Shown here piece after piece: positions 5,603-52,902 of a DNA stretch of 53,347 bases. The DNA is from Gracilibacillus sp. YIM 98692. GTDB taxonomy: Bacteria; Bacillota; Bacilli; Bacillales; Amphibacillaceae. A model generated the notes under the pieces. That model saw only the letters and a list, made by a program, of their open reading frames with translations, was not told the DNA's origin and searched no databases. Position 1 is the stretch's first letter; every line of letters starts with the position of its first letter. Both the position numbers and the translations under genes were made by a program. The DNA lies in the NCBI RefSeq assembly GCF_010993965.1, contig NZ_WIXM01000028.1:1-53347 (forward strand), given 5' to 3'.

Positions 5603-5715
5603 GGCAGAATACTACGCTTTCCGTGGGCTCGGCTTCAGCTAACTTGGTAAAGAAAAGCCCTTTACCAAGTGGATCTTCAGCTCTCGCTGTCCCACAGGAG
5701 TCTCCGTATTCTGCC
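5603..5715 (+). repeat. Palindromic element 1 (type I, forward)
   Basis: 113 bp bounded by perfect inverted arms GGCAGAATAC and GTATTCTGCC. Inside are CGCTTTCC, the middle stem GTGGG/CCCAC, the apical hairpin ACTTGGTAAAG/CTTTACCAAGT, and GGAGTCTCC before the right arm. Its interior is nearly identical to element 4, although the outer arms differ. Confidence 0.85.
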
Positions 5716-5802
5716 TTCGCTAATAAAGAAGTTCTACCTTCTGGAAGAATAGATCCATAAGAATTCATTTCTTTATTCAATCAGAACTCCACACAAAGCG
5801 GA

Positions 5803-5909
5803 GGCAAGATACGTAGACTCCTGCGGAAACAACACGTGTCCGAAGACCCCGCAGCGAGGGACGAGCGAGGAGGCTGAGGCCGTGTCCGCGGAAAGCGAAG
5901 TATCTTGCC
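5803..5909 (-). repeat. Palindromic element 2 (type II, reverse)
   Basis: 107 bp bounded by GGCAAGATAC and GTATCTTGCC. On the minus strand it reads CGCTTTCC, middle stem GCGGA/TCCGC, AGCCTCCTCG, GCGGGGTCTTC, then GGAGTCTACG. It faces element 1 across an 87 bp linker. Confidence 0.85.
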
Positions 5910-6017
5910 GAAGCGATTCTTTGCACTCAGCTTCGGAAGTATGGTAGAAAGTCATACTAAATTTATTGCGTAGTGTATGGATTTTGCGCACTATTTTTAT
6001 ACTTTCTGTTATAAAGA

Positions 6018-6048
6018 ACAAAAAGGGATATGTGTTCACATATCCCTT
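6018..6048 (-). terminator. hslO terminator overlapping the stop codon
   Basis: Twelve-base arms AAGGGATATGTG (6023-6034) and CACATATCCCTT (6037-6048). The minus-strand T run is 6022-6018. The upstream arm includes the first two bases of the hslO stop codon. Confidence 0.88.
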
Positions 6049-6919
6049 ATTTTTTCGTTTTTAATTTTTTGAGTTCATCAATGGAAAAAGTGTAAGTTTC
6101 ATTACAAAAATGGCAGGAAGCATGGGCGCCATGGTCTTCTCGAATCATAGCATCAATTTCTTCGTTGCCTAAACCAGAAATAGCTGTTGCCAACCGCTCT
6201 TTAGAACACGGACATGTAAAACCAACAGGCAACTTCTCATGAATCTTCACATTTTCTTCTAATAGAAGATGCAATATCTCTTCAGGTGTTTTACCATCCT
6301 GTACCAGTTGGGAGATAGGCGGAATTTTATTTATGCGTGTTTCAATTTTGCCTATTGTTTCTTCCGAAGCTCCTGGCATCATTTGAATAATAAATCCACC
6401 AGCTGCTAGAATAGAATGATCCGGATTCACCAGCACTCCAGCCCCAACTGCAGATGGTACTTGCTCCGAATTCGCTAAATAATACGTAAAATCCTCACTT
6501 ACTTCACCAGACACAATCGGCACTTGACCGGTAAAATGATTTTTTAGCCCCAAGTCTTTAACTACGCTTAATGTACCGTCTGTCCCTACCGCTCTTTTAA
6601 CATCTAATTTTCCATGTTCATTGGACTCAAAATCTACATGGGGTTGTGTTAAATAACCACGCACTTCACCTTTCGCATTGGCGTCAGCAATGATGGCTCC
6701 AGTAGGGCCATTCCCTTCTATTTTAACCGTTAATTTATCTTCTCCCTTTAGCATAGCACCCATCATAGCCGTTATAGTGATCGTTCTACCCAATGCAGCA
6801 GATGCTGTTGCCCAAGTATCTTGTCTTTGTCGAGCTTCCTCTACCGTATCAGTTGATGTAATCGCATATGCTCGAACATTTCCTTCATAGGCTGTCGCCT
6901 TTAATAAATAATCACTCAC
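6047..6919 (-). CDS. hslO: Redox-regulated chaperone Hsp33
   Basis: Cytoplasmic holdase activated by oxidation, binding unfolding proteins. It has 290 residues from a GTG start at 6919 with ribosome-binding site AAAGGA 9 nt upstream. This gives the family N-terminus (V/M)[12 protein letters not shown] and avoids overlap with coaX; the longer frame from 6955 adds 12 unconserved residues. Redox-zinc cysteines are CPCSKER and CHFCNE in the last 60 residues. It follows coaX by 19 nt and is likely co-transcribed with it. Confidence 0.95.
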
Positions 6920-6938
6920 TTTACACCGTTCCTTTCTC

Positions 6939-7715
6939 TTAAAAATTTTCCTCATTTCGTCTATAAATTTCGTATAACCCTTTTAACGTCAAATATGGAT
7001 CCACTATATCTATAGTCGAAGAATCTTTCGCTATTAATGTTGCTAAACCACCCGTTGCGATTACCTGAGGTGTGTCATTCATCTCTTGTTTAATACGATA
7101 AACTACTTCATCAACTTGCCCTACATAACCATAATATACCCCAGACTGCATCGCGCCTACTGTGGATGCACCTAACACTTGATCAGGCTTTTTTAATTCG
7201 ATCTTCGGTAATTTTGCCGCATTCATATACAAAGCTTCTAAAGAAATATTAATACCTGGGGTGATCACTCCACCCACATATTCTTTCGTTTCATTGATAT
7301 AACAATAAGTAGTTGCTGTACCAAAATCAATGATAATCGCTGGCGCTCTGTATTCTTTTATGACCCCTACAGCATTAACAATCCTGTCCGCTCCTAATTC
7401 TTTCGGGTTCGGATATTTCATTTTTAAGTGAGGATTTACCTTCTCATCCCCAATAACCATTGGTTTACAATGAAAATATTTATCAGCCATACGCTGAAAT
7501 GCAAAAAGAATGGGAGGAACTACAGACGAAATAATCAACCCATCGATGTCTGAAAAATGCAGATCTTCATGGGCCAGCAATGACTTAATAAACATCGCAT
7601 ACTCATCTTCTGTTTTATTTTTATCTGTTTGCATTCTCCACTGGTATTTTAGTTTATCCTCTGCAAAGACCCCTAATACAGTATTTGTATTCCCAACATC
7701 TAATACAAAAATCAT
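6939..7715 (-). CDS. coaX: Type III pantothenate kinase
   Basis: Phosphorylates pantothenate, the first step of CoA synthesis; type III enzymes are not feedback-inhibited by CoA. It has 258 residues from ATG 7715 (an upstream GTG adds three). The ASKHA phosphate motif [12 protein letters not shown] lies at the N-terminus, with GADRIVNAV and DFGTATTY near the middle. The CoaX-HslO pair is conserved in Bacillaceae. A terminator lies between ftsH and coaX, so it probably starts from the promoter at 7759-7788. Confidence 0.95.
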
Positions 7716-7758
7716 TTTATGCACCGCACTTTACTATTTAGAGTTTACTTCATTTCAT

Positions 7759-7788
7759 ATTGTATCGATAGTATGACATATATCGCAA
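7759..7788 (-). promoter_or_regulatory. Candidate sigma-A promoter for coaX-hslO
   Basis: Minus-strand TTGCGA (7783-7788), 18 nt spacer, TACAAT (7759-7764). It lies between the ftsH terminator and coaX. Confidence 0.5.
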
Positions 7789-7805
7789 GTTAATTGTATG
7801 ATGAA

Positions 7806-7847
7806 TGAAAAAGCAGCTTCTCTTCGATTCGAGAAGCTGCTTTTTTT
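7806..7847 (-). terminator. ftsH terminator
   Basis: Arms AAAGCAGCTTCTC (7810-7822) and GAGAAGCTGCTTT (7831-7843), flanked by T runs on either strand. It lies 6 nt after the ftsH stop. Confidence 0.92.
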
Positions 7848-7852
7848 ATTGC

Positions 7853-9811
7853 TTATTCCTTTTTGTCGTCTTCTTCTTTTGGCTTATCTTGATCCTGTGA
7901 CTGGATGTTTACTCGTACATCCTTTTCCGTAGTCTGTTCCCCTTTTTTAGCGGAAGAGCCTGTACCATCTTGCTCGGATACTACCGGATCTGGCAACTCA
8001 CCTTTATCGATAAGGGACTTAATTTGCGCTGCATCCAGCGTTTCTACCTCTAGTAATGTTTTAGCTACTAATTCTAACTTATCTTTATTATCTGTTAAAA
8101 TCTGTTTTGCTCGATCATAGCAGCTCTGAATAAATTCTTGCACTTCTTGGTCTATTTCATATGCAATAGCATCACTATAATTTTGCTCTTGTTGCATATC
8201 TCTACCTAAGAATACTTGTCCACCGCTGCTGCCAAACTGTAATGGACCAATTTTTTCACTCATACCATATTCCATGACCATCTTACGAGCGATGCCTGTA
8301 GCGCGTTGGAAGTCATTATGTGCGCCAGTACTCACTTCACCAAAGATAATCTCTTCTGCTACACGACCACCTAACAAGCCAGTGATTTTATCTAACAATT
8401 CCGGTTTTGTCATAAAGTAACGGTCTTCGCGAGGTAACATAACAGCGTAACCACCTGCTTGCCCACGTGGTACAATCGTTACCTTATGTACCATATCTGC
8501 ATCATCTAGTACCATACCGATAATGGTATGTCCACTCTCGTGATATGCCACAATATTTCTTTCCTTGTCTGATATAACGCGACTTTTCTTAGCAGGTCCA
8601 GCAATGACACGATCGATAGCTTCATCGACATCTTCCATGCCTATTTTTTCTTTATCATGTCTTGCCGCAACTAACGCTGCTTCATTAAGCAAGTTTTCTA
8701 AATCTGCACCTGAGAAACCTGGAGTTCGCATGGCAATTGTTTTTATTTCTACATCGTCTGCTAAAGGCTTATTTCTTGCATGAACTTTCAATACATCTTG
8801 ACGACCTTTTAAATCTGGTCTATCCACTGTAATTTGACGGTCAAAACGACCTGGACGCAACAATGCAGGGTCTAAAATGTCTGGTCGGTTTGTCGCAGCG
8901 ATAATGATAATTCCTTCATTTTCACCGAAACCATCCATTTCGACAAGCAATTGGTTTAAGGTTTGTTCACGTTCATCGTGCCCGCCACCAACACCTGCTC
9001 CACGTTGTCTACCTACAGCATCGATCTCATCTATAAAAATAATACATGGTGCATTTTTCTTTGCATTTTCAAATAAGTCACGTACACGTGACGCACCAAC
9101 ACCAACAAACATTTCCACAAAGTCTGAACCACTTATAGAAAAGAACGGAACACCGGCTTCACCAGCAACTGCTCGTGCAAGCAATGTTTTACCTGTACCA
9201 GGAGGTCCTACTAAAAGCACCCCTTTAGGTATCTTAGCACCGATAGCAGAGAACTTTCTTGGATCTTTCAAGAAGTCGACCACTTCTACTAGCTCTTGCT
9301 TTTCTTCATCAGCACCAGCCACATCTCTAAATCGTACCTTCTTCTTATCTTCACTGTACATTTTCGCCTTACTTTTACCGAAGTTCATGACACGACTGCC
9401 GCCGCCTTGCGCTTGGTTGAGTAAGAAGAAAAATAAGATGAATATAATCACAAATGGAATCATGGTTGTTAAGAATGTAACCCATCCACTTGGTTGTTCT
9501 TCTTCATCGACAGATAATATCCCTTGATCGGAAGCTATTTCCGTCACTTCCTCAACAATCGTTGGATTATCAGGAATATTTGTCACAAAAGCTGGGTTGT
9601 CCCCTGTTGCTAATTCACCAGAAATACGCATTACTCCATTAGAGGGGCGCATCTCCATGTCCTGAATTTCATTATTTTGCAATGCTTGCATAAATTCATT
9701 TACTTTAAATTCTTCAGCCTGGTTATTTTGGCTGCTAAATACTGATATGATCCCTATAACAACAAGGAATATTAAAAAGTACAGGATCACATTACGTATT
9801 ATCCGATTCAT
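7853..9811 (-). CDS. ftsH: ATP-dependent membrane zinc metalloprotease FtsH
   Basis: Membrane AAA+ protease that degrades misassembled membrane proteins and regulators, including sporulation factors in B. subtilis. It has 652 residues. TM1 is at about 6-25, an extracytoplasmic region at 26-110, and TM2 at about 112-132. Walker A is GPPGTGKT (202-209), Walker B is FIDEIDAVG, the second region of homology is [18 protein letters not shown], and the zinc site HESGH is near 426. The acidic Lys/Glu/Asp-rich tail is typical. It follows hpt and is upstream of coaX as in relatives. Confidence 0.97.
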
Positions 9812-9847
9812 TGCCTACCTCCTCCCGAAACGAGAAAACTATAGTAA

Positions 9848-9877
9848 ATAGTACCATATTGAAATAGTTTATTACAA
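9848..9877 (-). promoter_or_regulatory. Candidate sigma-A promoter for ftsH
   Basis: Minus-strand TTGTAA (9872-9877), 18 nt spacer, TACTAT (9848-9853), 37 nt upstream of the ftsH start. It is a moderate match only. Confidence 0.4.
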
Positions 9878-9943
9878 CTAATATAACTATTATTTACGAT
9901 ATGTATGTGAAAAGTCCTGTCATTATTTCTTAATATGACAACT

Positions 9944-10489
9944 TTATTCATCCCCACCGTAAACTTCTGGCTTTAACACACCAATATATGGAAGATTCCG
10001 ATATTTTTCTTGATAATCAAGTCCATAACCAACAACAAATTTATTAGGTACTTTAAATCCGACAACATCTGCTTTTATATCCACTGTTCTACCTTCAGGT
10101 TTATCAAGCAGCGTCACAATTTTAATCGAATTTGCCCCTCTATATTTAAATAAATCGACTAGATAGCTTAGGGTTAATCCACTGTCAATAATATCTTCCA
10201 CAATTAAAATATCTCTTCCTTCTACTTTTGTGTCTAAGTCCTTAACGATTTTTACTTCTCCAGATGAACGCATTTCATTCCCATAACTGGATACGTCCAT
10301 AAAATCCATTTCTAAATGTGTACGAATATTTCGTAAAATATCGGACATAAATGGTAGTGCTCCTTTTAAAACACCAATTGCAAGCGGAAATCTACCTTCA
10401 TATTCATCCGTTAATTGATCACCTAATTCCTTGCATTTTGATTGGATATCTTCTGCAGAAATTAAAATTTCTTTTATTTCGTTATGCAT
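9944..10489 (-). CDS. hpt: Hypoxanthine-guanine phosphoribosyltransferase
   Basis: Purine salvage: converts hypoxanthine or guanine plus PRPP to IMP or GMP. It has 181 residues. The PRPP-binding loop is [14 protein letters not shown] near residue 95, and the base-binding VGYGLDY lies near the C-terminus. It starts 2 nt after the tilS stop, the conserved tilS-hpt-ftsH order. In relatives TilS and HprT form a complex that stimulates ftsH transcription; whether that holds here is unknown. Confidence 0.96.
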
Positions 10490-10491
10490 TC

Positions 10492-11913
10492 CTATGCCTC
10501 CTGGTCCGTTTGTTCTTGATATTCAATACATACGAATTTTTGTGAATGCTTTGGGGTCATTATCTCTGCTTTTCGCAAGCCAATAACCCAAAGAATCGTT
10601 TGATCTTTTGCTACTAGAAGCGGCCAGTGATCTCTTTTATATAAGGGAATTTTCTCATCAATAAATAGATTTTTTATTTTTTTGCTGCCACCTAACCCTT
10701 TTATATTGATTCGGTCCCCAGGTTTTCGGGCTCTAACACTTAGCGGGAATAACTCTGCTCTCTCTAAGGGAACTTGCAAAGAGCTTGAATCCTCACTACA
10801 AGCATTTGTCGTAATCCAAGTTTTAATAAGATCTCCATTTGTCAGTGTTGTGACACCAGGAACTGTTATATGCTTTTCTTCCAATGAAGCATGTACCATA
10901 TTGCTTTCAAAGAAAAAAATAAAGTCATCGTAGTTTTTCATTGCTTTTAATGAACTTGGAAAATCTATTTTGACATTTGCCTTATCTTGATGCAACAATG
11001 CAAAAAAATCTTCTTCATGCTTTATAGACAAACCTTCTGGAACCTTATCATATAGATATCCTAATATTAGATGAAAGGCTCTCCTTTGTAAAGCAATCGG
11101 GTGTTTGACGAAAGAGGATATAGAAAATGTAACAGTCCTATTTACAGAAGAAATGGTGACAAGTCGCTGAATTAATTTTTTTGATTCTTCTACTAAGTAT
11201 TTTTCATCCTCTGTGACACGCTCCGTTAAATGCTGAACATGCCTATGTACACTGGGACTTTTCTCTTTTAATAATGGTAAAATATGATTTCTGTAAAAAT
11301 TCCTTGTGTAATCATCTGATTGATTTGTGGGGTCTTCTCGAAAAGAAATCTCATACATGTGACAATATTCATAAATAGTATCTTTAGCGATACACAAAAA
11401 AGGACGAATGATTTCTCCTTTTGCAAGACATCTTTTCACGGGAATCCCTTTTAATAACGAAGGATTGGTATGTTGGGCTATTCGCATCATGACCGTTTCT
11501 ACTTGGTCATCTCCATGATGAGCTAAGGCCAAATAATCAGCTTGGTAGTCGCTCATTAACCGCTCAAACAGAAGGTAGCGTAGGTTTCGCGCAGCTAATT
11601 GTGTACCTGCCTGTGATTGCCTTTTATATGCTTTTACATCTACCTGCTCACCTACAAATTCTATGTCAAGGGTTTCGCATAGCTCTTTCACGAAGCAAAC
11701 ATCCTGCTCTGATTCCTTTCCCCTTAAGCCGTGATCAATGGTTATTGCAATCAAACGAAGCTGCCAAGATTTACGAATAGAATGCAAATAATGAAGTAAT
11801 AAAGTAGAATCTGCTCCACCAGATACTCCAATAATAACCGTTGCCCCATTATGCAAGAGCCGATGCCTTCTAATAAATGGCATCACATTATCATTTAAAT
11901 CCTCAAAGACCAC
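10492..11913 (-). CDS. tilS: tRNA(Ile)-lysidine synthase
   Basis: Modifies cytidine 34 of the CAU-anticodon tRNA-Ile to lysidine so that it reads AUA. It has 473 residues. The N-terminal ATP-pyrophosphatase P-loop is SGGADST (about 30-36). The central TilS substrate-binding domain and C-terminal barrel extend to about residue 470. The start is a GTG preceded by GGGGTGGTGG. It is co-transcribed with hpt 2 nt downstream. Confidence 0.95.
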
Positions 11914-11977
11914 TAACCACCACCCCGCAAAAGTACCATTTACACTATTTTAACATATTATGAGTTAACTTTAATCA

Positions 11978-12922
11978 TTATGATAAGAATATCGTAACAT
12001 AAAGATAAACGGCACCACTAACAGAAAGTACACTCAGCATTTCTAATAGTGGATAGTAACTCTCCTCATCGCTATTGTTTAAAGTTCTATATGAAGAGCG
12101 CTTCTTGTCTCGTTGTTGATAATAATAAGTTAATAGATACTGCTTTACTTCTATTGCTTCTTTCACATGACCCAGAATTATCCCCTGTAATAATTTTCGA
12201 AATGGAGCAGGCTGTACTGCCTGATTTATTTTTTGCATTAATGTCCGCTTTGGATTATTACCTCTATTAAAGCCATTTGGATAATAGATTCTTAGCACAA
12301 CCATAACAAGTGCAAATAAATCATAACCGGGGTCTGCTTTCCTTTCTCCCATTTTCCAATAAGCTCGATCATAAAATTCTGTATATTCTTTGATAGATCG
12401 TCCTTGCAAAGTCGTTCCACCAACGTCCACCCACCTTAAACGGATGGGATTTCTCGAAACAATTAAATTATCCAGCTTTAAATCACCAAATACATACCCT
12501 TGTTGATGCAAGAGATGTAAGTCTTTTGTAAAGCCAATTAATAAAGAAACAATCCATTCATCACCATTTCTTCTTATAAAACTCTCCAGCCTTTCACCAG
12601 AAATATATTCCATGACATAAAAAGCATACATATAACCATTTGATGCCTGATAGTCATCGACATCGATTAAGGCAGGTCCAAGGTTATCTCCTTGAACCTT
12701 TTGAAACGTTTTTAAGACATTGACTTCACTAGTAATCGATGTGCTTTGTTTACTTACTTTTAGTGCTACCTGCTTTTGTTCACATACACATAAATAAACA
12801 GTCCCTATAGCCCCTCTCCCGAGCTCTCGCACAATTTGATAACTTTTGTGATGCCACTTCCCTGTAATCTTTTGTCCCTTTCTAAGTTGAATATCAGGCT
12901 TCTTCAATGTCTCGGAAATCAT
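11978..12922 (-). CDS. yabT: Hanks-type Ser/Thr kinase, YabT-like, C-terminal membrane anchor
   Basis: 314 residues. The kinase domain shows a glycine loop GRGAIGTVYL (about 35-44), the ATP lysine in VALKVSK (about 53-59), and a catalytic loop YVFGDLKLDN in place of canonical HRDLKxxN. DVGG replaces DFG. It keeps the catalytic Asp, Lys and Asn. A hydrophobic segment at about 293-312 would anchor it to the membrane. In B. subtilis the DNA-binding kinase YabT acts early in sporulation and phosphorylates RecA and AbrB. It overlaps yabS by 29 nt. Identification rests on locus and architecture. Confidence 0.88.
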   Translation of the reverse strand: MISETLKKPDIQLRKGQKITGKWHHKSYQIVRELGRGAIGTVYLCVCEQKQVALKVSKQSTSITSEVNVLKTFQKVQGDNLGPALIDVDDYQASNGYMYAFYVMEYISGERLESFIRRNGDEWIVSLLIGFTKDLHLLHQQGYVFGDLKLDNLIVSRNPIRLRWVDVGGTTLQGRSIKEYTEFYDRAYWKMGERKADPGYDLFALVMVVLRIYYPNGFNRGNNPKRTLMQKINQAVQPAPFRKLLQGIILGHVKEAIEVKQYLLTYYYQQRDKKRSSYRTLNNSDEESYYPLLEMLSVLSVSGAVYLYVTIFLS

Positions 12923-13628: not shown

Positions 13629-13719
13629 CGTGATATTCCTCCCGTTCATTAACTCTCACTATCGTTAACATGATCGCCAATGGACTGGGAGAATATACAT
13701 TTAGTTAAAGACTTTACTT

Positions 13720-31087: not shown

Positions 31088-31127
31088 TTCGATCACCCTC
31101 CATATTTTTAACCGTTATATGCCTATT

Positions 31128-31154
31128 TTTCCCTTGTTTATAAACAGTTAAACC
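31128..31154 (-). promoter_or_regulatory. Sigma-B promoter of ctc
   Basis: Minus-strand GGTTTAA (31148-31154), 14 nt spacer, GGGAAA (31128-31133), fitting the sigma-B consensus GTTTAA and GGGWAW. The gene is a classic sigma-B target in B. subtilis. Confidence 0.8.
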
Positions 31155-31341
31155 TATTTTTCTAAGAAGTGACCTTTTTCATATAGTTTTATATCCAATA
31201 TCAATTTCAGCGCATCTTAAATCAAAGCTGTTTTCTAAAAGATTGTTGCTTATTAAAAAACATCACTGCACAATAGCTATATACTGCGCATTAACTTTAA
31301 CATGACTTTCTCATTCTTACTTAGGTGAGTGCTAGTACCGC

Positions 31342-31461
31342 GCTGCGGAAAAACACTCGCTTTCCGTGGGGAACGCTTCAGCCTCCTCGGAAGCAAAGGG
31401 CGCTTCCTGCGGGGTCTTCAGACTGTTCCTTTCCCACAGGAGTCTCGCATTTTTCCGCAGC
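31342..31461 (+). repeat. Palindromic element 3 (type II, forward)
   Basis: 120 bp bounded by GCTGCGGAAAAA and TTTTTCCGCAGC. Interior: CGCTTTCC, middle stem GTGGG/CCCAC, AGCCTCCTCG, apical stem GGAAGC/GCTTCC, CTGCGGGGTCTTC, GGAGTCTCG. Its right flank (TTAGGTTGGTGCTCGTTTTG) recurs after element 7. Confidence 0.87.
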
Positions 31462-31549
31462 TTAGGTTGGTGCTCGTTTTGAGTGAGAAAATATCATCAA
31501 ACCTATGGAAAAATGAAATAAATCATAAATCGTACCACTCACTAGCGTA

Positions 31550-31661
31550 GACAACATACGGAGACTCCTGTGGGACAGCGAGAGCTGAAGATCCACTTGG
31601 TAAAGGGTTTTTCTTTACCAAGTTAGCTAAAAACCGCCCACGGAAAGCGAAGTATGTTGTC
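31550..31661 (-). repeat. Palindromic element 4 (type I, reverse)
   Basis: 112 bp bounded by GACAACATAC and GTATGTTGTC. The interior closely matches element 1 (middle stem GTGGG/CCCAC, apical ACTTGGTAAAG/CTTTACCAAGT), although the outer arms are different. It faces element 3 across an 88 bp linker. Confidence 0.87.
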
Positions 31662-31781
31662 GGAGCGTATGATTACAGGCTTCAAAAATGAGGGAGATTT
31701 AAGCACTATATTAATATTTTACTGTGTCGCTGTTTTGTTCAATTGTGTATTAAAATAAAACCATGCAAAGCCAAAAGAGCT

Positions 31782-32732
31782 TTAATCAAACAAAATACTT
31801 ACAGATTGGCGTTCATGGACGCGAATGATTGCCTCGCTAATTAAAGGTGCTACAGACAATTGTGTTACTTTATCAATTTGTTTTTCTTCGCTTAAAGGAA
31901 TACTATTCGTGACCACTAACTCCTTAATTTTAGAGCTTTGAATTCTATCAATAGCTGGACCTGATAGAACAGGGTGTGTACAGCATGCATAAACATCTGT
32001 CGCCCCATTTTCAATTAATGCGTTTGCCCCTAACGTAATCGTACCTGCTGTATCAATTATATCATCAATTAATATGGCTGTTTTCCCTTCAATATTACCG
32101 ACAATATTCATAACCTCAGCAACATTTGGGCGCGGGCGTCTCTTATCAATAATGGCAATCGGTGCCTTTAATCGATCAGCTAATTGACGAGCACGTGTCA
32201 CCCCACCATGGTCAGGTGATACCACTACAATATCTTCCAGTTCTTTTTTGCTCCAATAGCTAGAAAGAATTGGTACACCAACTAGCTGATCTACTGGAAT
32301 ATCAAAAAAGCCTTGAATTTGTGGTGCATGCAAATCTAATGTAATGACACGAGAAGCTCCTGCTGTTTGTAATAAGTCGGCAACAAGCTTAGCTGTAATT
32401 GGTTCGCGAGCTCTTGCCTTTCTATCTTGACGTGCATACCCATAATAAGGCATTACGATATTAATCGATTTAGCAGATGCACGCTTTAACGCATCAATCA
32501 TAATTAGAAGTTCCATAATATGCTGGTTCCCTGGCTCGCAAGTAGATTGAACAACATATACGTCACAGCCTCTAATACTTTCTTCAATATTAATTTGGAT
32601 TTCACCATCACTAAACTTCGTTACCGAGCTTTTACCCAAGTCCACTCCGATATTTGCAGCAATCTCTTCTGCTAGTCTCGGATTCGAATTTAATGTAAAA
32701 ACTTTTAACTTGGAATCCTTATATTCGGACAT
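31782..32732 (-). CDS. prs: Ribose-phosphate pyrophosphokinase
   Basis: Makes PRPP for nucleotide, histidine and tryptophan synthesis. It has 316 residues. [16 protein letters not shown] (near 130), the flexible loop KKRRP-like DKRRPRPN, and the PRPP loop [12 protein letters not shown] (near 218) are all present. It lies 29 nt after glmU and is co-transcribed with it. A weak hairpin lies downstream without a T run. Confidence 0.97.
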
Positions 32733-34290: not shown

Positions 34291-34385
34291 CTCCTTTATA
34301 ATTTTTCTGACATACATAAACTTTGTGATAGACATTTAATGCGTCCTAAGATGATATAACTCGATCAATGATGAGTGCAAGTCTT

Positions 34386-34434
34386 GCTGCTGAAAAACTC
34401 TCGCTTTCCGTGGGGAACGCTTCAGCCTCCTCGG
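34386..34434 (+). repeat. Palindromic element 6 (type II, left half only)
   Basis: Contains GCTGCTGAAAAAC, CGCTTTCC, GTGGGGAACG and TTCAGCCTCCTCGG, then stops; the matching right half is missing. The left flank (TTTTTCTGACATACATAAAC near 34303) resembles that of the composite copies at 5494 and 39169. Confidence 0.75.
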
Positions 34435-38979: not shown

Positions 38980-39168
38980 GGATCCTCCATTCTTAAAAAC
39001 CTAGTACAAACCATTGTACCACCATTTACACCAACAAGGAAATTCGCCTATGATTGCCCGGTATTTGAAAATAAATTTAATTTGTTTTTCACCAAATATT
39101 AAAACTTAATTTTAATTTAAAGAACTATAAAAATGGACGCAAAACTTGCCTATAATCCTTTATCATTA

Positions 39169-39580
39169 TTCTGACATGCATAATTCGTAGTAGAACAAAA
39201 CTGCGCAATAGTCAAAATTTATCTTGCTGTAGCTTCTTCCATTCTAGTTTGAGATGTGTGCTATCATTCGCTCCGTCAAAATACTTCGCTAATAAAGAAG
39301 TTCTACCTTTCAGGAGAATAGGCACATAGGAACTTATTTCTTTTGTGCTCTTTCTTTCTTCCATCAGAACACCACACAAAGCGAGGCAAGATACGTAGAC
39401 TCCAACGGGAACAGCGCGAGCCGCAGACCCCGCAGGAAAGCGACTTTTGCTTTCTGAGGAGGCTAAGGCCGTGCCCGTGGAAAGCGAAGTATCTTGCCGA
39501 AGCGATTCTTTGCACTTAGCTTCGGAAGAGTGGTAGAAAGCCATGCTACAGTTATTGCGTCGTTTATGGATAATGTGCAA
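39169..39580. repeat. Composite intergenic repeat, copy B (412 bp)
   Basis: Homologous to 5494-5990 in flanks, linker and second element. It lacks the first element: CATTCGCTCC continues with a single arm-like GTCAAAATAC and then TTCGCTAATAAAG. Confidence 0.82.
39385..39498 (-). repeat. Palindromic element 5 (type II, reverse)
   Basis: 114 bp bounded by GGCAAGATAC and GTATCTTGCC. On the minus strand: CGCTTTCC, middle stem ACGGG/CCCGT, AGCCTCCTC, apical stem GAAAGC/GCTTTC, CTGCGGGGTCT, GGAGTCTACG. The middle and apical stems differ from those of elements 1-4 but still pair. Confidence 0.87.
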
Positions 39581-39627
39581 TGAGGTTTATTTTTAAAAAG
39601 CAACAATCTTTTACGAAAAAGTTCAAA

Positions 39628-41953: not shown

Positions 41954-43942
<1,989 letters not shown>

Positions 43943-44143: not shown

Positions 44144-44154
44144 TACGCTATAGA

Positions 44155-44171: not shown

Positions 44172-44190
44172 AAAAGGGGAGAAATAATTA

Positions 44191-44466: not shown

Positions 44467-44524
44467 TTTTTTTTCATTTTACTTCGAGATTTGTCGAATT
44501 TTAGACCTTAATTATACTTATCGT

Positions 44525-45394: not shown

Positions 45395-45671
45395 CTATTA
45401 CATACCTTTCTTTTCTATTCTCTTTAATGAAAGAAAGCTTTTGTTCTTTAGTTAACTTTTTAATTTTAGCCTCAAGACTTAAAGCTTCTGATTTTGAGGA
45501 ACATGCTGTTTGGTATACTAATTTAAAAGGAGCCCTTCCTCGCATATACTTCGCCCCTTTGCCTTTTCGATGCAGGGCTAAACGGTGGTTTATATTTGTG
45601 GTATATCCAGTATATAAGGTGTGATCTTTGCACTCTAACATATATACATAGTGCTGATTATTTTCTTCCAT
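45378..45671 (-). CDS. yazA: GIY-YIG nuclease-domain protein YazA
   Basis: 97 residues, a single GIY-YIG fold: YVYMLECKDHTLYTGYTTN with the catalytic Arg in NHRLALH and Glu in LSLEAKIKKL. It belongs to the YhbQ/UPF0213 group of unproven cellular role, possibly acting on DNA. It overlaps yabB by 14 nt and rsmI by 17 nt, forming a tight three-gene unit. Confidence 0.93.
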   Translation of the reverse strand: MEENNQHYVYMLECKDHTLYTGYTTNINHRLALHRKGKGAKYMRGRAPFKLVYQTACSSKSEALSLEAKIKKLTKEQKLSFIKENRKERYVIDEDTK

Positions 45672-46401
45672 ATAATATCCCTTCTAATTCAGGAGTATAT
45701 TCTCCCTCATCTGTAAAAGCATACAACGGAGGAAGCATCTTTACATCAGACTTACCATCCCGTATCCCTTCTATTAATAACATATTTGCTTCTCTATCTT
45801 TCTTTGGATACACAAAACGTATTCGTTTCGGTTCTATTTTATAGGTGCGAAACAATGTCACAATATCGATAAATCGTGAAGGTCTATGCACCATTGCCAC
45901 CTTCCCACCAGACTTTGCTAACTTACTGCAAGTTTCCACTACCTCTTCAAGCGTACAAAAGACTTCATGTCTTGCAATCGTTAAATAATCATTGTGATTG
46001 TGGTGTTTTTTGCTACTTGTTGGAAAATAAGGTGGATTAACAGTCACTAAATCAAATTTATCATTGCCAAATAAAGCAGGCATATCTTTTAGGTCACCAT
46101 GAATCATCTTTATTTGGTCGGTTAACTGATTCATTTGAATGCTACGATTGGCCATATCAAACAATCGATCTTGAATTTCAACACCTGTAATGGGGACTTG
46201 TGATTGTTGTGATAGCAATAAGGGAATGACACCGTTTCCTGAGCATAAATCAATAATTTTCCCTCGTTTTATCGGTACATTCGCGAAATGGGCTAATAAT
46301 ACAGCATCTAATGAAAATGCAAATACGCTAGGACTTTGGATAATTTGCATGGATTGATCTGCTAGCAAATCATCTATTCTCTCATCTTCTTTCAATTCCA
46401 T
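45658..46401 (-). CDS. yabB: tRNA1(Val) A37 N6-methyltransferase-like protein YabB
   Basis: 247 residues from ATG 46401, with AAGGAG 7 nt upstream. SAM-binding motif IDLCSGNGVIPLLL near 48 and catalytic NPPYF near 121 mark an adenine N6-methyltransferase of the TrmN6 type. Function by homology only. It is the first gene of the yabB-yazA-rsmI unit, after the yabA terminator and a repeat remnant. Confidence 0.92.
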   Translation of the reverse strand: MELKEDERIDDLLADQSMQIIQSPSVFAFSLDAVLLAHFANVPIKRGKIIDLCSGNGVIPLLLSQQSQVPITGVEIQDRLFDMANRSIQMNQLTDQIKMIHGDLKDMPALFGNDKFDLVTVNPPYFPTSSKKHHNHNDYLTIARHEVFCTLEEVVETCSKLAKSGGKVAMVHRPSRFIDIVTLFRTYKIEPKRIRFVYPKKDREANMLLIEGIRDGKSDVKMLPPLYAFTDEGEYTPELEGILYGRK

Positions 46402-46482
46402 AAGATAAACTCCTTCAAAAAATGAACATCTATATACCATATATTATTTAAAAAGGCTTGATAAAGAAAAACAAACCTAAAC

Positions 46483-46529
46483 CGCGGAAAAATGACAGCA
46501 AAGACCCTACAGTAGTGTTTTTCCACAGC
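46483..46529 (-). repeat. Palindromic element 8 (degenerate, internally deleted)
   Basis: 47 bp. GCGGAAAAATG at the left and GTGTTTTTCCACAGC at the right match the ends of element 3 in reverse orientation, with only AAGACCCTACAG of the interior left. It lies between yabA and yabB. Confidence 0.6.
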
Positions 46530-46628
46530 AGAGATATAGACAGCATTATTTCCAGAACAGTATCTTAGCATCTTCACAATTTCCTTACAAGTGTTTCTTA
46601 CATAATGGTTCAACTGTTAAGTGATTTG

Positions 46629-46664
46629 TAAAAAAAGACTGACACGGATTGAATGCGTCAGTCA
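46629..46664 (-). terminator. yabA terminator
   Basis: Arms GACTGACAC (46637-46645) and GCGTCAGTC (46655-46663) with one mismatch, then a run of T on the minus strand; 33 nt after the yabA stop. Confidence 0.88.
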
Positions 46665-46696
46665 TCAGAAAGTTCTTTTTCCTTTTAATATCGGGA

Positions 46697-47050
46697 CTAT
46701 TTCGTTTTATTTAGGAATAATAAACAAAATAAACAATCCCCTTCTTGTCGTGGGCTGCCAAAGTGAACATTACAAATATGAAATCCCTCTTCATACAACC
46801 TTGCTAAATTATCATAGCCTTCACCAATGGATACATCACTATCTTCTGATTCCCCTTCATTTTGTTGTGAAGGCTGATCGTCTAAGCGTTGTCTTAAATG
46901 GTGATTCTCCATTTCTAAACGGTGATTTTCCTCTATTATATCACTCAACTGTTTTTTTAAATCTCCTAATTGTTGATAAAGCTGGCCTATTTGTTCTTCC
47001 ATATATGATACTTGTTCAAATAAATCCTTTTTCTTCACGTGATCATCCAC
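46697..47050 (-). CDS. yabA: Replication initiation control protein YabA
   Basis: Limits replication by binding DnaA and the DnaN clamp. It has 117 residues. An N-terminal coiled coil (about 5-60) rich in leucine and glutamine is followed by an acidic linker and a C-terminal zinc site with HICN, VHFG and CLFC. It begins 4 nt after the ricT stop. Confidence 0.95.
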
Positions 47051-47054
47051 CCCA

Positions 47055-47882
47055 TTAATCAGCGGCCTGGGTATTGATAACTCCTTCTTCCATTAGTTCA
47101 TCTAACGTATATTCAATCACTCTTTCCTTTTCAGGAATTTCAACTTGAATAAGTCGCTCTAATATATTTAAGCCAACAACTTTCCCTTGACCATAGCCTG
47201 TTTTTATTTCTTCCCCTAAATCTGGAAGTTCACGCTTTGCTGTTTCATAATCATCATTTTCATATTTTAAGCAGCACATTAGGCGACCACATAATCCAGA
47301 AATTTTAGAAGGATTTAACGAAAGATTTTGATCTTTTGCCATTTTAATTGATACTGGCTCAAAGTCACCTAGAAAGGTAGAACAACAAAGCATTCTACCG
47401 CATGGGCCAATCCCGCCTAATAATTTTGCTTCGTCCCTTACACCTATTTGACGTAGCTCAATTCGTGTTTTAAACACAGAAGCAAGATCTTTTACTAAAT
47501 TACGAAAGTCTACACGACCGTCTGCCGTAAAGTAAAAAATGACTTTATTTCGATCAAATGTATATTCTACATCCACTAAATTCATGTCCAATTTGTGTTC
47601 TTTTATTTTTACTTGACAAGTTTGATAGGCTTCATCAGCAATTTCTTTATTTTCTACGACAATTAGTTTATCTTTTTCATTGGCCACACGAATTACTTTT
47701 TTCAATGGCAGCACAACATCTTCTTCGTCCACTTGCTTTTTCGCCACGACAACTTTTCCGAATTCAATCCCTCTAACGGTTTCGACGATAACATACTCAT
47801 CTTTCTCTATATCTAAGTTATCAGGATCAAAATAATATATTTTACCCGCTTTCTTAAAACGGACACCTATAACTTCAATCAC
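47055..47882 (-). CDS. ricT: PSP1-domain protein RicT (YaaT)
   Basis: Part of the RicA-RicF-RicT complex that directs RNase Y and promotes phosphorelay/sporulation in B. subtilis. It has 275 residues from GTG 47882 (site AGAGGTG). The PSP1 domain spans about 60-145 and the cysteine-rich GPCGRMLCC and [11 protein letters not shown] carry the Fe-S ligands. The ATG two codons earlier is too near the ribosome site. It starts 6 nt after the holB stop. Confidence 0.94.
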
Positions 47883-47888
47883 TAGCAT

Positions 47889-48875
47889 TCACCTCTGCAT
47901 TTGAAGTGTTAATTGTTCCATTACTAATTGCGGATGTACATTTTGTTCAAGCTTTCGCTTCGCCTCCATGGTAGCCTGTAAATAGGTTGTCACATCAGAC
48001 AATGACCAATACATACAAGCCTCTTCCATTTTATTTATATGTTGGATAAACACAATGGAAGCAGTATCATCTAAATGCTTATGAACAAGGTCTCGGAGCC
48101 ATATTAAAAGTAGGTCCAATCCCTCGTGAAGCTGTTCTCTATCCTGAAAATGAGACATCCATTGTGTATGCACAAATAATGGCACTTCTTCTTGATTATT
48201 TTGGAGCATTTCAATTAATTGTACCACTATTTTTCGCGCCTGTGCAAACCAAGTATCTTTACTTTTTTCGATTGCTGCTTGTATATTTTGGGTAATCGTG
48301 GACATTAGTCTAGCATTGGCTTCTGTTAATCCTTCTTCTATTAAACGTTGCTCTAAAATTTTTGGATTTAATGGTTGTAGTGACATAACTTGGCACCTAG
48401 ATCTTATTGTATTTAATATTGCTTGACTATTTTCTGTTAGAAGGATTGCAGTCGTATCTTGATTAGGATCCTCTAAAAATTTCAACAATCGATTAGATGC
48501 ATTAGCTGTCATTTTATCGGCATCACGGATGATGTACATCTTCTTATTGGATTCTAACCCTGTATACGTAAATTCTTTTTGTAAATGTAAGATTTGTTCT
48601 TTCTTTATACTAGCCCCATCTGGTTGCACGATATGTAAATCTGGATGATTGCCACTTTCGATACGACGACAGTCGCTGCACTGTTCACAAGGCTCATAGT
48701 TTTGTTTTTTTCGACAAAAAATACTTTTTGCAAATAGAAGTGCTAACATATTTTTGCCTGTCCCCTTATCTCCTTGAAAAAGGTAGGCGTGTGACACCCG
48801 ATTTTTTACGATACTATTTATCACCATTTTACTAATAATGGGTTGACTCTCCAGCATATCCTTCCATGAACCCAT
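47889..48875 (-). CDS. holB: DNA polymerase III delta-prime subunit
   Basis: Clamp-loader subunit. It has 328 residues. P-loop GDKGTGKN near 35; zinc module CRKKQNYEPCEQCSDC near 54-69; SRC motif SRCQVMSL near 160. The nucleotide loop is intact, unlike some delta-prime subunits. It begins after the terminator that follows yaaR. Confidence 0.94.
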   Translation of the reverse strand: MGSWKDMLESQPIISKMVINSIVKNRVSHAYLFQGDKGTGKNMLALLFAKSIFCRKKQNYEPCEQCSDCRRIESGNHPDLHIVQPDGASIKKEQILHLQKEFTYTGLESNKKMYIIRDADKMTANASNRLLKFLEDPNQDTTAILLTENSQAILNTIRSRCQVMSLQPLNPKILEQRLIEEGLTEANARLMSTITQNIQAAIEKSKDTWFAQARKIVVQLIEMLQNNQEEVPLFVHTQWMSHFQDREQLHEGLDLLLIWLRDLVHKHLDDTASIVFIQHINKMEEACMYWSLSDVTTYLQATMEAKRKLEQNVHPQLVMEQLTLQMQR

Positions 48876-48907
48876 GATCTCACCGCCAATTCCTTTCCTT
48901 ATCGATA

Positions 48908-48955
48908 CTCAAAAAGAGGATTGATTAGCAATGGTTCTAATCCACCCTCTTTTTC
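48908..48955 (-). terminator. yaaR terminator
   Basis: Stem AAAAAGAGG/CCTCTTTTT extended by GATTAG/CTAATC after a 3 nt internal loop (48911-48954), with a short T stretch. It lies 13 nt after yaaR and breaks the tmk-yaaR-holB cluster. Confidence 0.82.
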
Positions 48956-48967
48956 TAGTCAAGATGT

Positions 48968-49417
48968 TTACGTATATAAATTAACTAAAAGTCCTTTTAT
49001 TTCTCCAATCAATTCTAACACTTCTACCGCATTTTTTTCTTGATCCAATACAGTATCCGCTAATTCATTTAATTTATTATCAATCTCCTCTACAATCGTT
49101 AGTGGACGGCTATCACCGCCTAAATTAAAACTATGAGACTTTTTTAACCGCATCCCAAATTCTACCGCTTCTTTCACAAAACGCCTTACCAGTCTCTTAT
49201 ATGCAGCCAAATCTCTAAAAGACCGAAAACGAATGACTTTTTCTCCTTGAGCTGTTAATTCTGCCATTAGTTTTTGGAGTTCATTTTGTTGCAGCTTAGT
49301 AGCTTGTGCTCTTACCATAGAATCAAAATGTGGAGCAGATGCTCTCGTATTAGAGTTTTGTTTATTTAGTGCATCTAATTGTGTGCGCATCTCTTGGCTA
49401 ATTTTCACTATCTTCAA
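48968..49417 (-). CDS. yaaR: YaaR-family protein
   Basis: 149 residues (DUF327), predicted all-helical and cytoplasmic. Contains FRDLAAYKRLVRRFVKEAVE near 70. Function is unknown; the neighbours darA and holB are constant in Firmicutes. Confidence 0.9.
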   Translation of the reverse strand: MKIVKISQEMRTQLDALNKQNSNTRASAPHFDSMVRAQATKLQQNELQKLMAELTAQGEKVIRFRSFRDLAAYKRLVRRFVKEAVEFGMRLKKSHSFNLGGDSRPLTIVEEIDNKLNELADTVLDQEKNAVEVLELIGEIKGLLVNLYT

Positions 49418-49437
49418 ACCTTTCCCATATAGAACTA

Positions 49438-50422
<985 letters not shown>

Positions 50423-50497
50423 TTAGCATCTCCTCTTTCTATAAATGAAACTTATATTTTCCCTATAAAGGATGATAGTAGTCTTAGGTTTTCCATT

Positions 50498-50515
50498 AAC
50501 ATCACGATGTTAATA
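50498..50515. other. Short inverted repeat after yaaO
   Basis: TTAACAT/ATGTTAA around a 4 nt loop, 8 nt past the yaaO stop. There is no T run, so terminator function is doubtful. Confidence 0.35.
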
Positions 50516-50522
50516 TAAGCAC

Positions 50523-51959
50523 TTACTTCTTTTGATCAGAAAATACAAATAATCCTTCCATTCTATTATTTGGCTGAAACTTTACTCCATGTTCATATAA
50601 TGAAAATACTTGAGCTAAATGTTGCTTGGTTATTTTTTCTCCTTTAGCTATAAGTGGAATACCTGGTGGGTAAGGGATAATCGACTCTGCTGCTATATAC
50701 CCAACAGTTCCTTCCCATTCCATCCATTTTCTATCAAGCTTTTTCATTTCATCATAGGATAAAGCTAAAGTAGTGATTTCTTCCAAAAATGTTACCTTGT
50801 GTCTCTTTATTTTAGCATGATTTGCTGCATTATTTAATTGTCCTTTCACTTTTTCTATAACATGTATAAGCTTGTTTATCTTGACTGTAGGCTCTAGCCC
50901 TACTACAAATAATATATGCCAATCTGTTACAAGCTCTGGAAATATCCCTTCTGATTCTAATAATGACGCAATATCCTTGGTATCAACACAATCATTGACT
51001 TTAATCGTACATTTTAATGGATCATCTAGGTGATACTGTTTTTCTAACTGCCAGTAATCATTACTCGACATAGCCTTTCTTACTTGTTTCAGGTAATTGC
51101 CAAGGGTTCCCCACTGTTTTTGAGTGTAATTGGCTAAATAACATCGAGCTAAGTCAAGGCTAGCCATCACTGGATATGAGGGACTACTTGACTGTAAAAC
51201 TTGCAAATAATGTTGAATCAGATCTTTATCTACTCGCTCTGTCTGAACATGTAGGTACGCCCCCATAGTTAAGGCAGGTGTCATTTTATGTGCTGACTGT
51301 ACTACTATATCGGCACCTTGTGATACAGCTGATGATGCCTTGATAAATGACAGGGACAAATGACAACCATGCGCTTCATCTACTAGTACTGGAATATGAT
51401 TATCATGTGCAATATCAATCATTGACTTTATATCATACGTTTTCCCATAATAATCGGGATATGTTAATATTAACGCTTTCGCTTCAGGATATTCTTGGCA
51501 GGCTTTTTGTACAACAGATAACGATGGTTGAGTATAACGCTCCAATTCCATATCAAGTTCAGGGGCTATAAAAACTGGCTTTGCCCCTGCCAGTTCTATA
51601 CCATGTAGAATTGACTTATGACAATTTCGCTGTACAATTACAACATCGTTCGGTTGACAACATGCTAAAATCATAGTTAGGTTGCCTGCTGTACTTCCAT
51701 TTACTAAAAAGTAGGTGCGATCTGCATGAAACCAATTGGAAGCTAATTCCTGCGCTTGTTCGATAATACCTTCTGCTGCATGTAAATCGTCTAAATCCGT
51801 TAACTCTGTCAAATCTATTTTAAAGATATTACTGAAATATTCATATCCTTTTCTCGTATATATTTGGCCGTTCTTATGACCAGGAACATGAAAGGAAACA
51901 TTCTGTTTTCGCGCAAATTGATCAAGTTGATCGAATAATGGTGTATCTAAATGGTTCAT
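50523..51959 (-). CDS. yaaO: Orn/Lys/Arg decarboxylase-family PLP enzyme YaaO
   Basis: 478 residues from ATG 51959. PLP-dependent fold-type I decarboxylase: the PLP lysine lies in SAHKMTPALTMGA, and HVPGHKNG near the N-terminus and DEAHGCHLS are conserved. It likely decarboxylates a basic amino acid, but the substrate is not determined; B. subtilis YaaO is related to arginine decarboxylase SpeA. In B. subtilis xpaC and yaaN lie between it and csfB; here they are missing. Confidence 0.9.
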   Translation of the reverse strand: MNHLDTPLFDQLDQFARKQNVSFHVPGHKNGQIYTRKGYEYFSNIFKIDLTELTDLDDLHAAEGIIEQAQELASNWFHADRTYFLVNGSTAGNLTMILACCQPNDVVIVQRNCHKSILHGIELAGAKPVFIAPELDMELERYTQPSLSVVQKACQEYPEAKALILTYPDYYGKTYDIKSMIDIAHDNHIPVLVDEAHGCHLSLSFIKASSAVSQGADIVVQSAHKMTPALTMGAYLHVQTERVDKDLIQHYLQVLQSSSPSYPVMASLDLARCYLANYTQKQWGTLGNYLKQVRKAMSSNDYWQLEKQYHLDDPLKCTIKVNDCVDTKDIASLLESEGIFPELVTDWHILFVVGLEPTVKINKLIHVIEKVKGQLNNAANHAKIKRHKVTFLEEITTLALSYDEMKKLDRKWMEWEGTVGYIAAESIIPYPPGIPLIAKGEKITKQHLAQVFSLYEHGVKFQPNNRMEGLFVFSDQKK

Positions 51960-52117
51960 ATACTTTCTTTCCCTTTCTCTCAACTAATAATTCTTCTTTA
52001 TATCATAGAATTTTGCCTATTCTATTAGAAAAAATTAGCTTATCACCAAGTCCTTATGGCGAAAGCCTTAGTTTTTCTTATACTATATTCCGACAAATTT
52101 CATGCTTTCCTTTAGTA

Positions 52118-52150
52118 TAAAAAAATCAACCATCCCTAGATGGCTGATTC
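52118..52150 (-). terminator. gin terminator
   Basis: Arms AATCAACCATC (52124-52134) and GATGGCTGATT (52139-52149) with one mismatch, followed by TTTTT on the minus strand. Confidence 0.85.
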
Positions 52151-52152
52151 TA

Positions 52153-52344
52153 TTATAAAGTATAGCTTGATTGATTAATAGCTCTCAATTTTTTGACAAA
52201 CATTTGGTAGTTAGATTCACCTGGTTTTGTATTTACTATTTCTTTTTCACATTCACTACAGATAAAAAAATGATATAAAAAAATGCCGTCTTCTTTCTCT
52301 TTTTCACAGATACCACAATGTTTTTGTATTACCTTTTCACTCAT
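52153..52344 (-). CDS. csfB: Sigma-factor inhibitor Gin (CsfB)
   Basis: 63 residues from ATG 52344, with GGAGGTGG upstream; an earlier ATG five codons ahead overlaps that site. Two CXXC pairs (CGICEKEKEDGIFLY and ICSECEKEI) form a zinc ribbon. In B. subtilis it is an anti-sigma-G factor that prevents premature sigma-G activity. A sigma-G-like promoter is found upstream. Confidence 0.93.
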   Translation of the reverse strand: MSEKVIQKHCGICEKEKEDGIFLYHFFICSECEKEIVNTKPGESNYQMFVKKLRAINQSSYTL

Positions 52345-52363
52345 TTTTTCCACCTCCATTCAT

Positions 52364-52393
52364 TATCATGCCCAATCTATGAAAATATATTCC
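52364..52393 (-). promoter_or_regulatory. Candidate sigma-G/F-type promoter of csfB
   Basis: Minus-strand GGAATA (52388-52393), 17 nt spacer, CATGATA (52364-52370), matching CATNNTA of sigma-G. The overlapping GGGCATGAT is one mismatch from the sigma-F -10. csfB is transcribed by both in B. subtilis. Confidence 0.55.
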
Positions 52394-52438
52394 TGATTTC
52401 TATGATTTTTATCTTAAACTAAAAAGTCTTTTTATGTC

Positions 52439-52454
52439 TTTTTCACGTGAAACA
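52439..52454. promoter_or_regulatory. parS site (ParB/Spo0J binding)
   Basis: TTTTTCACGTGAAACA differs at one position (2) from the B. subtilis parS form TGTTTCACGTGAAACA. It is intergenic and origin-proximal, as expected for parS in Firmicutes. ParB would nucleate here and load SMC. Confidence 0.8.
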
Positions 52455-52717
52455 TTATATTTTATGTTGAAAAATAGAAGATTATGTCTCATATTTCTAT
52501 CAAACTAGATTAGCTTTTTCAAGAATTCATTAGTTTGGTAATTTTTAATCATCATAAGATTAAAGCATCCGTTTGACCATTTCGTTTTGGGAATCCTATT
52601 ACAACATTAAATACAAACAAATAAACGGTCGTATAGTATAATAAATAATGTGCGTTAAGTAGCTCACCGAAACATTTGAATTAGAAACATAAAAATTATT
52701 AATAGTGTTAAATCCCC

Positions 52718-52902
52718 GCTGTGTAAAAACACTCGCTTTCACCCAAGGGCACAAGTGCGATATCTACTCAAGCTCCTTTTTCTCGCTTTCGCAGTGTCTT
52801 CTATGCCGAGGGCAGCACTCCAGCCTTCTCGCTCACCAAAACCGTTCAGTACGGGGATCTTCGGAAGCTAATCTTTCCCAGAAGTCTCGCATTTTTCCGC
52901 AA
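52718..52902 (+). repeat. Palindromic element 7 (enlarged, divergent)
   Basis: 185 bp. GCTGTGTAAAAACACTCGC at the left and GTCTCGCATTTTTCCGC at the right match the ends of element 3, but the arms pair imperfectly and the interior carries about 65 extra bp including GCTTTCGCAGTG and GAGGGCAGCACTCC. The flank TTAGTGTGGTGCTCGTTTTG also matches element 3. Confidence 0.75.

Follow-up and report, generated by a model that had tools for sequence, protein, structure and literature searches.

REPINs and REP-BIMEs are extragenic, non-coding hairpins that occur in inverted pairs, and a REP bears a GTAG or CGTC tag. The pneumococcal BOX, RUP and SPRITE repeats are stem-loop elements resembling miniature inverted-repeat transposable elements (MITEs) and number 125, 110 and 30 copies, with SPRITE lying near gene 3' ends (PMC3049150), while Bhal-1 of B. 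halodurans is an intergenic stem-loop family of 74 bp with 36(32) copies (Table 3 of PMC2267715). We analysed a stretch of 53,347 nucleotides from Gracilibacillus sp. YIM 98692 (contig NZ_WIXM01000028.1; hereafter the window), whose intergenic palindromic hairpins are typically the halves of an inverted pair inside a gene-free element of about 0.47-0.6 kb. Like REPINs and REP-BIMEs, these units are extragenic and non-coding and hold inverted hairpin pairs (all 37 two-hairpin units found), but their hairpins are about 110-135 bp long, the unit is bounded at about 0.55 kb, and the Y1 transposase is absent from some genomes rich in the element. They differ from BOX, RUP and SPRITE in host and in having paired inverted hairpins, and share with Bhal-1 the form of intergenic stem-loops in a related genus, both comparisons being made by description only. 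The units are probably an unnamed family of non-autonomous hairpin mobile DNA. The basis for this is their dispersal, the fixed orientation of the pair, the existence of filled and empty sites, a location near gene 3' ends and terminators, and two-sided Watson-Crick covariation in the stems. The kind is ordinary, as non-autonomous interspersed palindromes are already known; literature searches gave no name for this hairpin family, and as far as those searches go both the family and its architecture are new. The cleanness of the covariation at the DNA level is unusual.

A first-pass annotation of the window had described single palindromes at eight places (five intact elements, one enlarged copy and two fragments). 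All eight are present and the elements are real, but their inverted pairing, the larger unit, its ends, its terminator-adjacent position and its mobility had been missed. The elements at 5603-5715 and 5803-5909 form one unit (unit A), those at 31342-31461 and 31550-31661 another (unit B), and the element at 39385-39498 belongs to a third (unit C) that lacks its first hairpin. BLAST coverage by other loci of the same genome rises and falls at about 5450/6018, 31215/31770 and 39155/39635, giving units of about 0.47-0.57 kb. Unit A, in the cysK-prsA gap, extends by this coverage over positions 5450-6018 and consists of a terminator-like end hairpin, a forward hairpin, a linker, a reverse hairpin and the other end. 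Its hairpins lie at 5594-5722 on the forward strand (outer arm GGCAGAATAC; 119.3 bits with our hairpin model, R1) and at 5796-5918 on the reverse strand (outer arm GGCAAGATAC; 124.6 bits), and its outer end, CAGAAAGTATAAAAATAGTGCGC (5986-6008, reverse strand), lies immediately beyond the upstream gene's intrinsic terminator (6020-6046, -12.7 kcal/mol). Unit B, in the prs-ctc gap, covers 31224-31783 with ends, read from the sequence, of AAAGCTGTTTTCTAAAAG... and ...CAAAAGAGCTTT; its hairpins are at 31338-31463 (forward; arm GCTGCGGAAAAA; 122.5 bits) and 31543-31670 (reverse; arm GACAACATAC; 105.6 bits). It is flanked by AATC at 31220-31223 and 31784-31787, a possible 4-bp target duplication. 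Unit C, in the rnmV-yabE gap, covers 39155-39624, carries one hairpin (39379-39507, reverse; arm GGCAAGATAC; 125.5 bits) and abuts the yabE terminator (-13.2 kcal/mol) at its right end.

The outer arms of the five intact copies are perfectly complementary, over 12 bp at 31342-31461 and over 10 bp in the other four; the enlarged copy and the two fragments have no perfect arm. The annotation's statement that all copies lie between genes needs a qualification at 39385, where the element underlies a 122-aa open reading frame (ORF; 39212-39580) that we take as spurious. Where the first hairpin of unit C is absent, a single arm, GTCAAAATAC, is kept at 39275-39284. Five units without a first hairpin (unit C and loci L012, L019, L022 and L069) share an identical junction (39265-39297 in the window, set against 5603-5715) and keep one arm, a pattern consistent with deletion between CTwCGCT repeats or with a subfamily that never had the hairpin. 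From these five units the 7-bp CTwCGCT direct repeat around hairpin 1 was at first taken for a target duplication; deletion between short repeats probably fits better.

The arrangement seen in the window is general. In 0.8 Mb of this genome and of a congener (G015) we found 54 units, 37 with two hairpins and 17 with one, after leaving out sets of two and five matches that were opposite-strand echoes of stronger matches. In every one of the 37 the CGCTTTCC sides face outward and the hairpins stand 48-144 bp apart. Hairpins are longer than the usual 110-135 bp when they hold an inserted module, and most model matches in the window's own genome are about 125 bp. Inverted pairs also occur at loci of Oceanobacillus, Planococcus and Neobacillus (L262, L264, L268). 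As far as tested, the claim that no copy carries a transposase is borne out, as no ORF longer than 150 aa overlaps the hairpin span in the 54 units, and the units are short, non-coding, multicopy and dispersed, as MITEs are. Their outer ends are conserved and fall into at least two types. In the window, one family of ends resembles an imperfect terminal inverted repeat (AAAGCTsTTTTC); in G015 and a second congener, G010, there is a 21-bp inverted repeat in subterminal position, and the two outer ends are not alike. With up to three mismatches this repeat occurs 471 times in G015 and 265 times in G010 (the reversed pattern 0 times and once) and not at all in the window's own genome. The perfect 21-bp repeat of G015 was rejected as a true terminal inverted repeat because conserved sequence runs on outside it.

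The family is abundant and unevenly distributed. The window's own genome holds at least 150 matches to the model (all 150 scored, of 1107 candidates, match), and G015 holds 64 hairpins within 400 kb. Among 61 genomes of related bacteria, the window's own being one, 54 contain matches when the best 56 candidates per genome are scored: 35 of 37 from the same family (again with the own genome) and 19 of 24 from elsewhere in the order. Congener G011 and the named Gracilibacillus massiliensis genome have their matches at the same coordinates, in keeping with a Gracilibacillus as the source of the window. A survey of named genomes (50 given of 80 fetched, best 69 candidates scored in each) found matches in 26, all of which we take from their titles to be of Bacillaceae, Planococcaceae or Staphylococcus type. 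Counts are high in Halobacillus and Gracilibacillus (at least 69), Neobacillus (18-59 in five genomes), Planococcus (51 and 42) and Oceanobacillus (32 and 34); Lysinibacillus and Cytobacillus gave one weak match each, and none was found in the surveyed Bacillus haynesii, B. taeanensis, Shouchella, Brevibacillus, two Paenibacillus, lactobacilli, streptococcus and clostridia. Across the phylum, 3 of 299 genomes, own included, match at E <= 1e-6 among the best 11 candidates scored per genome. Unit B gave no blastn match in phage sequences, and the G015 unit none in plasmids. The sole plasmid record matched by unit B, Radiobacillus NZ_CP088021, was rejected as a plasmid copy, being by gene content a fragment of the chromosomal origin region.

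Comparison of gaps between species shows filled and empty sites. The prs-ctc gap measures 62-160 bp in 14 of 16 congeners, 274 bp in one, 785 bp in G015 and 685 bp in the window, with G015 holding a different subfamily from unit B. The rnmV-yabE gap measures 689 bp in the window, 1015 bp in G015 and 95 bp in G010; across the 15 genomes examined, the window's own among them, 10 have a gap of between 84 and 196 bp. In G010 the terminator T-run continues straight into the sequence upstream of rnmV, and the extra block of G015, which also contains a second, unrelated repeat, lies exactly between the two; the long gaps of two other congeners (G012 and G006) hold other sequence and not the hairpin element. 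In Radiobacillus, all three gaps that are filled in the window span 80-100 bp, between genes named largely after the record annotation. The cysK-prsA comparison rests on the Radiobacillus spacing (about 90 bp, from annotation), the prsA query having matched another place in other relatives. The second repeat is found in this gap in both G015 (L349; GGCTCCAGCGCC...GGGCGCTTGCGCCTTTG) and G012 (L333-L334); it begins just past the yabE terminator and has a AAGAAAGTATA start in common with the hairpin units, and it may use the same insertion route as they do.

The units lie near the 3' ends of genes. Among 53 units the gene context was tandem in 35, convergent in 16 and divergent in 2, against 465, 90 and 92 for background ORF pairs in the same stretches (ORFs picked by length rather than with a gene finder, at least 90 aa for flanks and at least 100 aa for background). 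Units A and C of the window follow intrinsic terminators of upstream genes, and unit B begins at the prs stop codon. The ends were compared in 0.5 Mb of G015, where an outer end could be recognised for only 42 of 80 subterminal repeats (22 of type B and 20 of type A). A T-run lies within 30 nt outside 20 of the 22 B-ends, compared with 386 of 2000 random positions, and a stable hairpin precedes the T-run in 12 of 22, compared with 19 of 2000; the control positions include coding sequence, so the enrichment is overstated. At A-ends a T-run lies outside in 8 of 20 with no stable hairpin before it, and the A-end consensus itself folds into a terminator-like hairpin (-17 kcal/mol, with a T-run). 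Unit B separates prs from ctc (31097-31781); the ctc promoter, which we presume from its motif GTTTAA...GGGAAA to be sigma-B-like and which is seen in most congeners, is intact downstream of the unit.

Compensatory change had been claimed for the outer arm, the middle stem and the apical hairpin, and at all three it lies far above chance. In 22 rows from the window's own genome, 19 of 34 pairs had changed on both sides, double-change cells numbered 101 against 31 +/- 5 in shuffled alignments, and 93.8% of cells were paired, a signal that shifting the partner by 1-3 columns abolished. These rows were aligned freely with MAFFT, the structure was taken from folds of those very sequences, and one row mixes two copies at its end. 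In 89 distinct rows (from 91 matches, covering the window plus 60 other loci from many genomes), 30 of 34 pairs had changed on both sides, with 589 double-change cells against 146 +/- 10 when shuffled and 92.9% of cells paired; all five measures exceeded all 500 shuffles, in an alignment that was fitted to the model and so leans toward the structure. The boxes CGCTTTCC and GGAGTCT, described earlier as fixed and unpaired, are only partly unpaired, since their inner bases, TTCC and GGAG, pair below a bulged A through one T.G, one T-A and two C-G pairs, of which the T.G is nearly fixed.

Of 47 copies with outer arms of the ATAC type, 39 pair perfectly over 10 nt; nine arm sequences occur among them, and one core can be found with two or three different arms. 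Because the arm families align with one another, we take them to be homologous and not independent. Acquisition of the arms from the target at each insertion was rejected, as the same arm sequence turns up repeatedly within a subfamily and next to different cores. Compensatory change has been attributed in published work to template switching, in which one arm is copied onto the other (PMC8794818 and PMC7202029).

The alternative that survives best derives the hairpin from insertion sequences (ISs) of the IS1182 type (IS1272 and its kin), the units then being MITEs moved in trans by a DDE transposase; we consider this unlikely. No window element matched an Rfam family at the gathering score; a divergent member does lie inside tsr24 (RF02577), a small RNA (sRNA) of S. 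aureus and the only Rfam family found to contain the hairpin. The window scores 29.9 bits with tsr24 (E 9.4e-5; gathering score 50) and a copy from the same genome 32.6 bits, the hairpin with its boxes aligning to model positions 123-210. The tsr24 model differs from our hairpins in that it describes a catalogued sRNA and also spans about 120 nt of neighbouring IS sequence; literature searches gave no paper on this RNA among the entries listed. In S. nepalensis and prophage phiPV83 tsr24 scores 85.1 and 213.1, both above gathering and both at the same place as the R1 match, and the phiPV83 element is annotated as IS1272-like. Next to the hairpin in S. nepalensis is a gene that aligns with the first half of the NCBIfam IS1182 profile at 168 bits, short of the cut-off of 270.

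A single hairpin of the family stands just past the left-end terminator in four of seven IS1182-type elements (Kurthia, phiPV83 IS1272, S. nepalensis and S. equorum). The three from Terribacillus, Cytobacillus and Mesobacillus have no hairpin, with the terminator still present, so the hairpin is not required by the IS; it may have inserted beside the IS terminator as beside others, or it may be an old part of the IS that some have lost. Since only four of the seven carry it, we lowered the IS1182 elements as its native home. The IS also encodes a transposase and carries one hairpin at one end, whereas the units carry two, and the unit ends are, by eye only, unlike the IS ends (GAGxCTGGGACA). 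When the S. nepalensis piece was run in tblastn (E 1e-5) against 2.75 Mb (overlaps included; part of each genome), no second gene of this type appeared. IS1272 is reported to replace target inverted repeats or stem-loops without target duplication (PMC5678879), and therefore IS1182 stays a candidate mobiliser. All seven IS1182-type elements (L281, L384, L385 and L387-L390) have a strong hairpin, mostly with a T-run, between the left end and the transposase gene, which is perhaps a guard against outside transcription.

A second alternative is that the hairpins are a structured RNA, either an sRNA or a cis-regulator, under selection at the RNA level. The folds predicted for the five intact window copies are stable on either strand (about -44 to -57 kcal/mol), and the staphylococcal member is catalogued as an sRNA. 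RNA-level selection on either strand predicts a strong excess of one of the G.T and A.C mismatches. In five groups of variable stems from 87 rows (four having been dropped as duplicates or strand echoes, and a further two stems, in each of which one pair is mostly T.G, being excluded) there were 1937 Watson-Crick cells, 31 G.T, 52 A.C and 75 others. Counted as distinct classes the mismatches are 20 G.T and 20 A.C, and without a clade that shares one A.C they are 30 G.T and 41 A.C. As a control, the acceptor and T stems of 44 tRNAs gave 467 Watson-Crick cells, 54 G.T, 1 A.C and 6 others. There is no excess of G.T, and therefore we read the pairing as kept at the DNA level. The annotation had proposed that a folded RNA or DNA hairpin is being maintained; we think that it holds in its DNA form, as the structure looks kept as DNA, and the mismatch counts lower the probability of an RNA family. 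The window score with tsr24 is also below gathering, the sites are polymorphic, and the three filled gaps of the window adjoin unrelated genes. We find selection on an RNA very unlikely.

The units could instead be sites selected by the host (terminators, insulators or chromosome-organising sites) and spread by recombination rather than as parasites. Their location near gene 3' ends and the terminator-like hairpin that often forms one end agree with such a role. Against it, genera within a single family vary from 0 to at least 56 matches, and the sites compared are not conserved between congeners, so that we give this explanation little chance.

Profiles for two candidate enzymes were run against 17 genomes of the genus. 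RVT_1 had no match in six (G010, G014, G012, G016, G009 and G005), some of them rich in the element, and reverse transcriptase, and with it retro-mobility, was rejected on this ground; group IIC introns are known to insert after terminators. Y1_Tnp (PF01797) had some match in 12 of the 17 and none in the other five (own, G010, G014, G003 and G002). A REPIN-like element moved by a Y1 transposase of the RAYT or IS200 type, which the inverted pairs around a short spacer, the lack of a long ORF, the extragenic position and the 12 genomes with a Y1_Tnp match would all suit, is the least probable explanation and is rejected for now, as the window's own genome and the single-contig G010 and G002 are element-rich yet without a Y1_Tnp match and a REP, at 20-40 bp (PMC3733652), is several times shorter than these hairpins.

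The reading that we favour, a family of non-autonomous mobile hairpin pairs, has several points against it, to which the limits given above on the recognisable ends, the T-run controls and the model-fitted alignment also belong. No mobilising enzyme was found for the units, and no gene was seen between the hairpins in the 54 units of the 0.8 Mb examined. The one clean junction, that of G010 and G015 at rnmV, shows no clear target duplication. The filled and empty sites, which suggest that the elements move or have moved, are differences between species and not movement observed directly. In the 22-row set, further pair types were no more frequent than in shuffles (33 against 33.5). Several of the aligned copies are closely related, so the cells counted do not represent independent events, and the excess of A.C over G.T in raw cells (p 0.03) is nominal for related copies. 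Among 30 copies with GCTG-type arms, just one has perfect pairing over the 15 nt examined, and most of them have 1-3 mismatches.

Mobility of hairpin pairs could be accounted for as follows. The units would insert beside terminator hairpins, and an enzyme acting in trans or a host process would recognise the folded DNA hairpin and the conserved boxes, and not the sequence of the arms. During replication, template switching between the arms would transfer changes from one to the other, so that arms diversify and stay paired. A broader and more tentative proposal is that the units represent a class of mobile DNA found throughout the Bacillales, set apart by the long-hairpin fold and not by sequence, that might move as inverted pairs to sites beside terminators with the help of some enzyme other than a Y1 transposase or a reverse transcriptase, with arms evolving by template switching and tsr24 being a domesticated or hitchhiking copy in IS1272.

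The other places in the window are less complete. A 5' fragment of a GCTGCGG-type hairpin lies at 34358-34434 on the forward strand (extent by BLAST; 96% identity over 49 nt to 31342-31390; 34386-34434 in the annotation). A probable remnant on the reverse strand at 46471-46529 (46483-46529 in the annotation) has, as read from the sequence, both outer arms with the interior deleted, and is 88% complementary over 24 nt to 31448-31471; BLAST of 46400-46700 against 78 loci gave no match. The enlarged copy (52718-52902 in the annotation) is a degenerate single hairpin at 52704-52932 on the forward strand, near the 5S rRNA gene (53054-53169), and its apical module of about 65 bp recurs in six other copies of the same genome. 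Some hairpins of this genome (the enlarged copy and L015, L018, L029, L038, L030 and L049) carry one of two alternative modules of about 60 bp within the apical part. G015 copies in the prs-ctc and rnmV-yabE gaps have a similar insert, and a length of about 189 bp is common among the G015 matches. NZ_CP088021.1, a record of 66.6 kb labelled as a Radiobacillus kanasensis plasmid, contains two IS110 transposases along with the origin region of the chromosome (lysS, ftsH, prs, metG and others), which is syntenic with the window. The record was probably misassembled or mislabelled, or it represents a circle excised from the chromosome.

These hairpins number dozens to hundreds per genome in several genera of the Bacillaceae and Planococcaceae, and they provide hundreds of natural replicates for separating RNA-level from DNA-level covariation. 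Strong covariation is normally taken as evidence for an RNA, and the comparison of A.C with G.T mismatches here says otherwise. The family also poses the problem of what moves a hairpin-paired element in genomes without a Y1 transposase or a reverse transcriptase.

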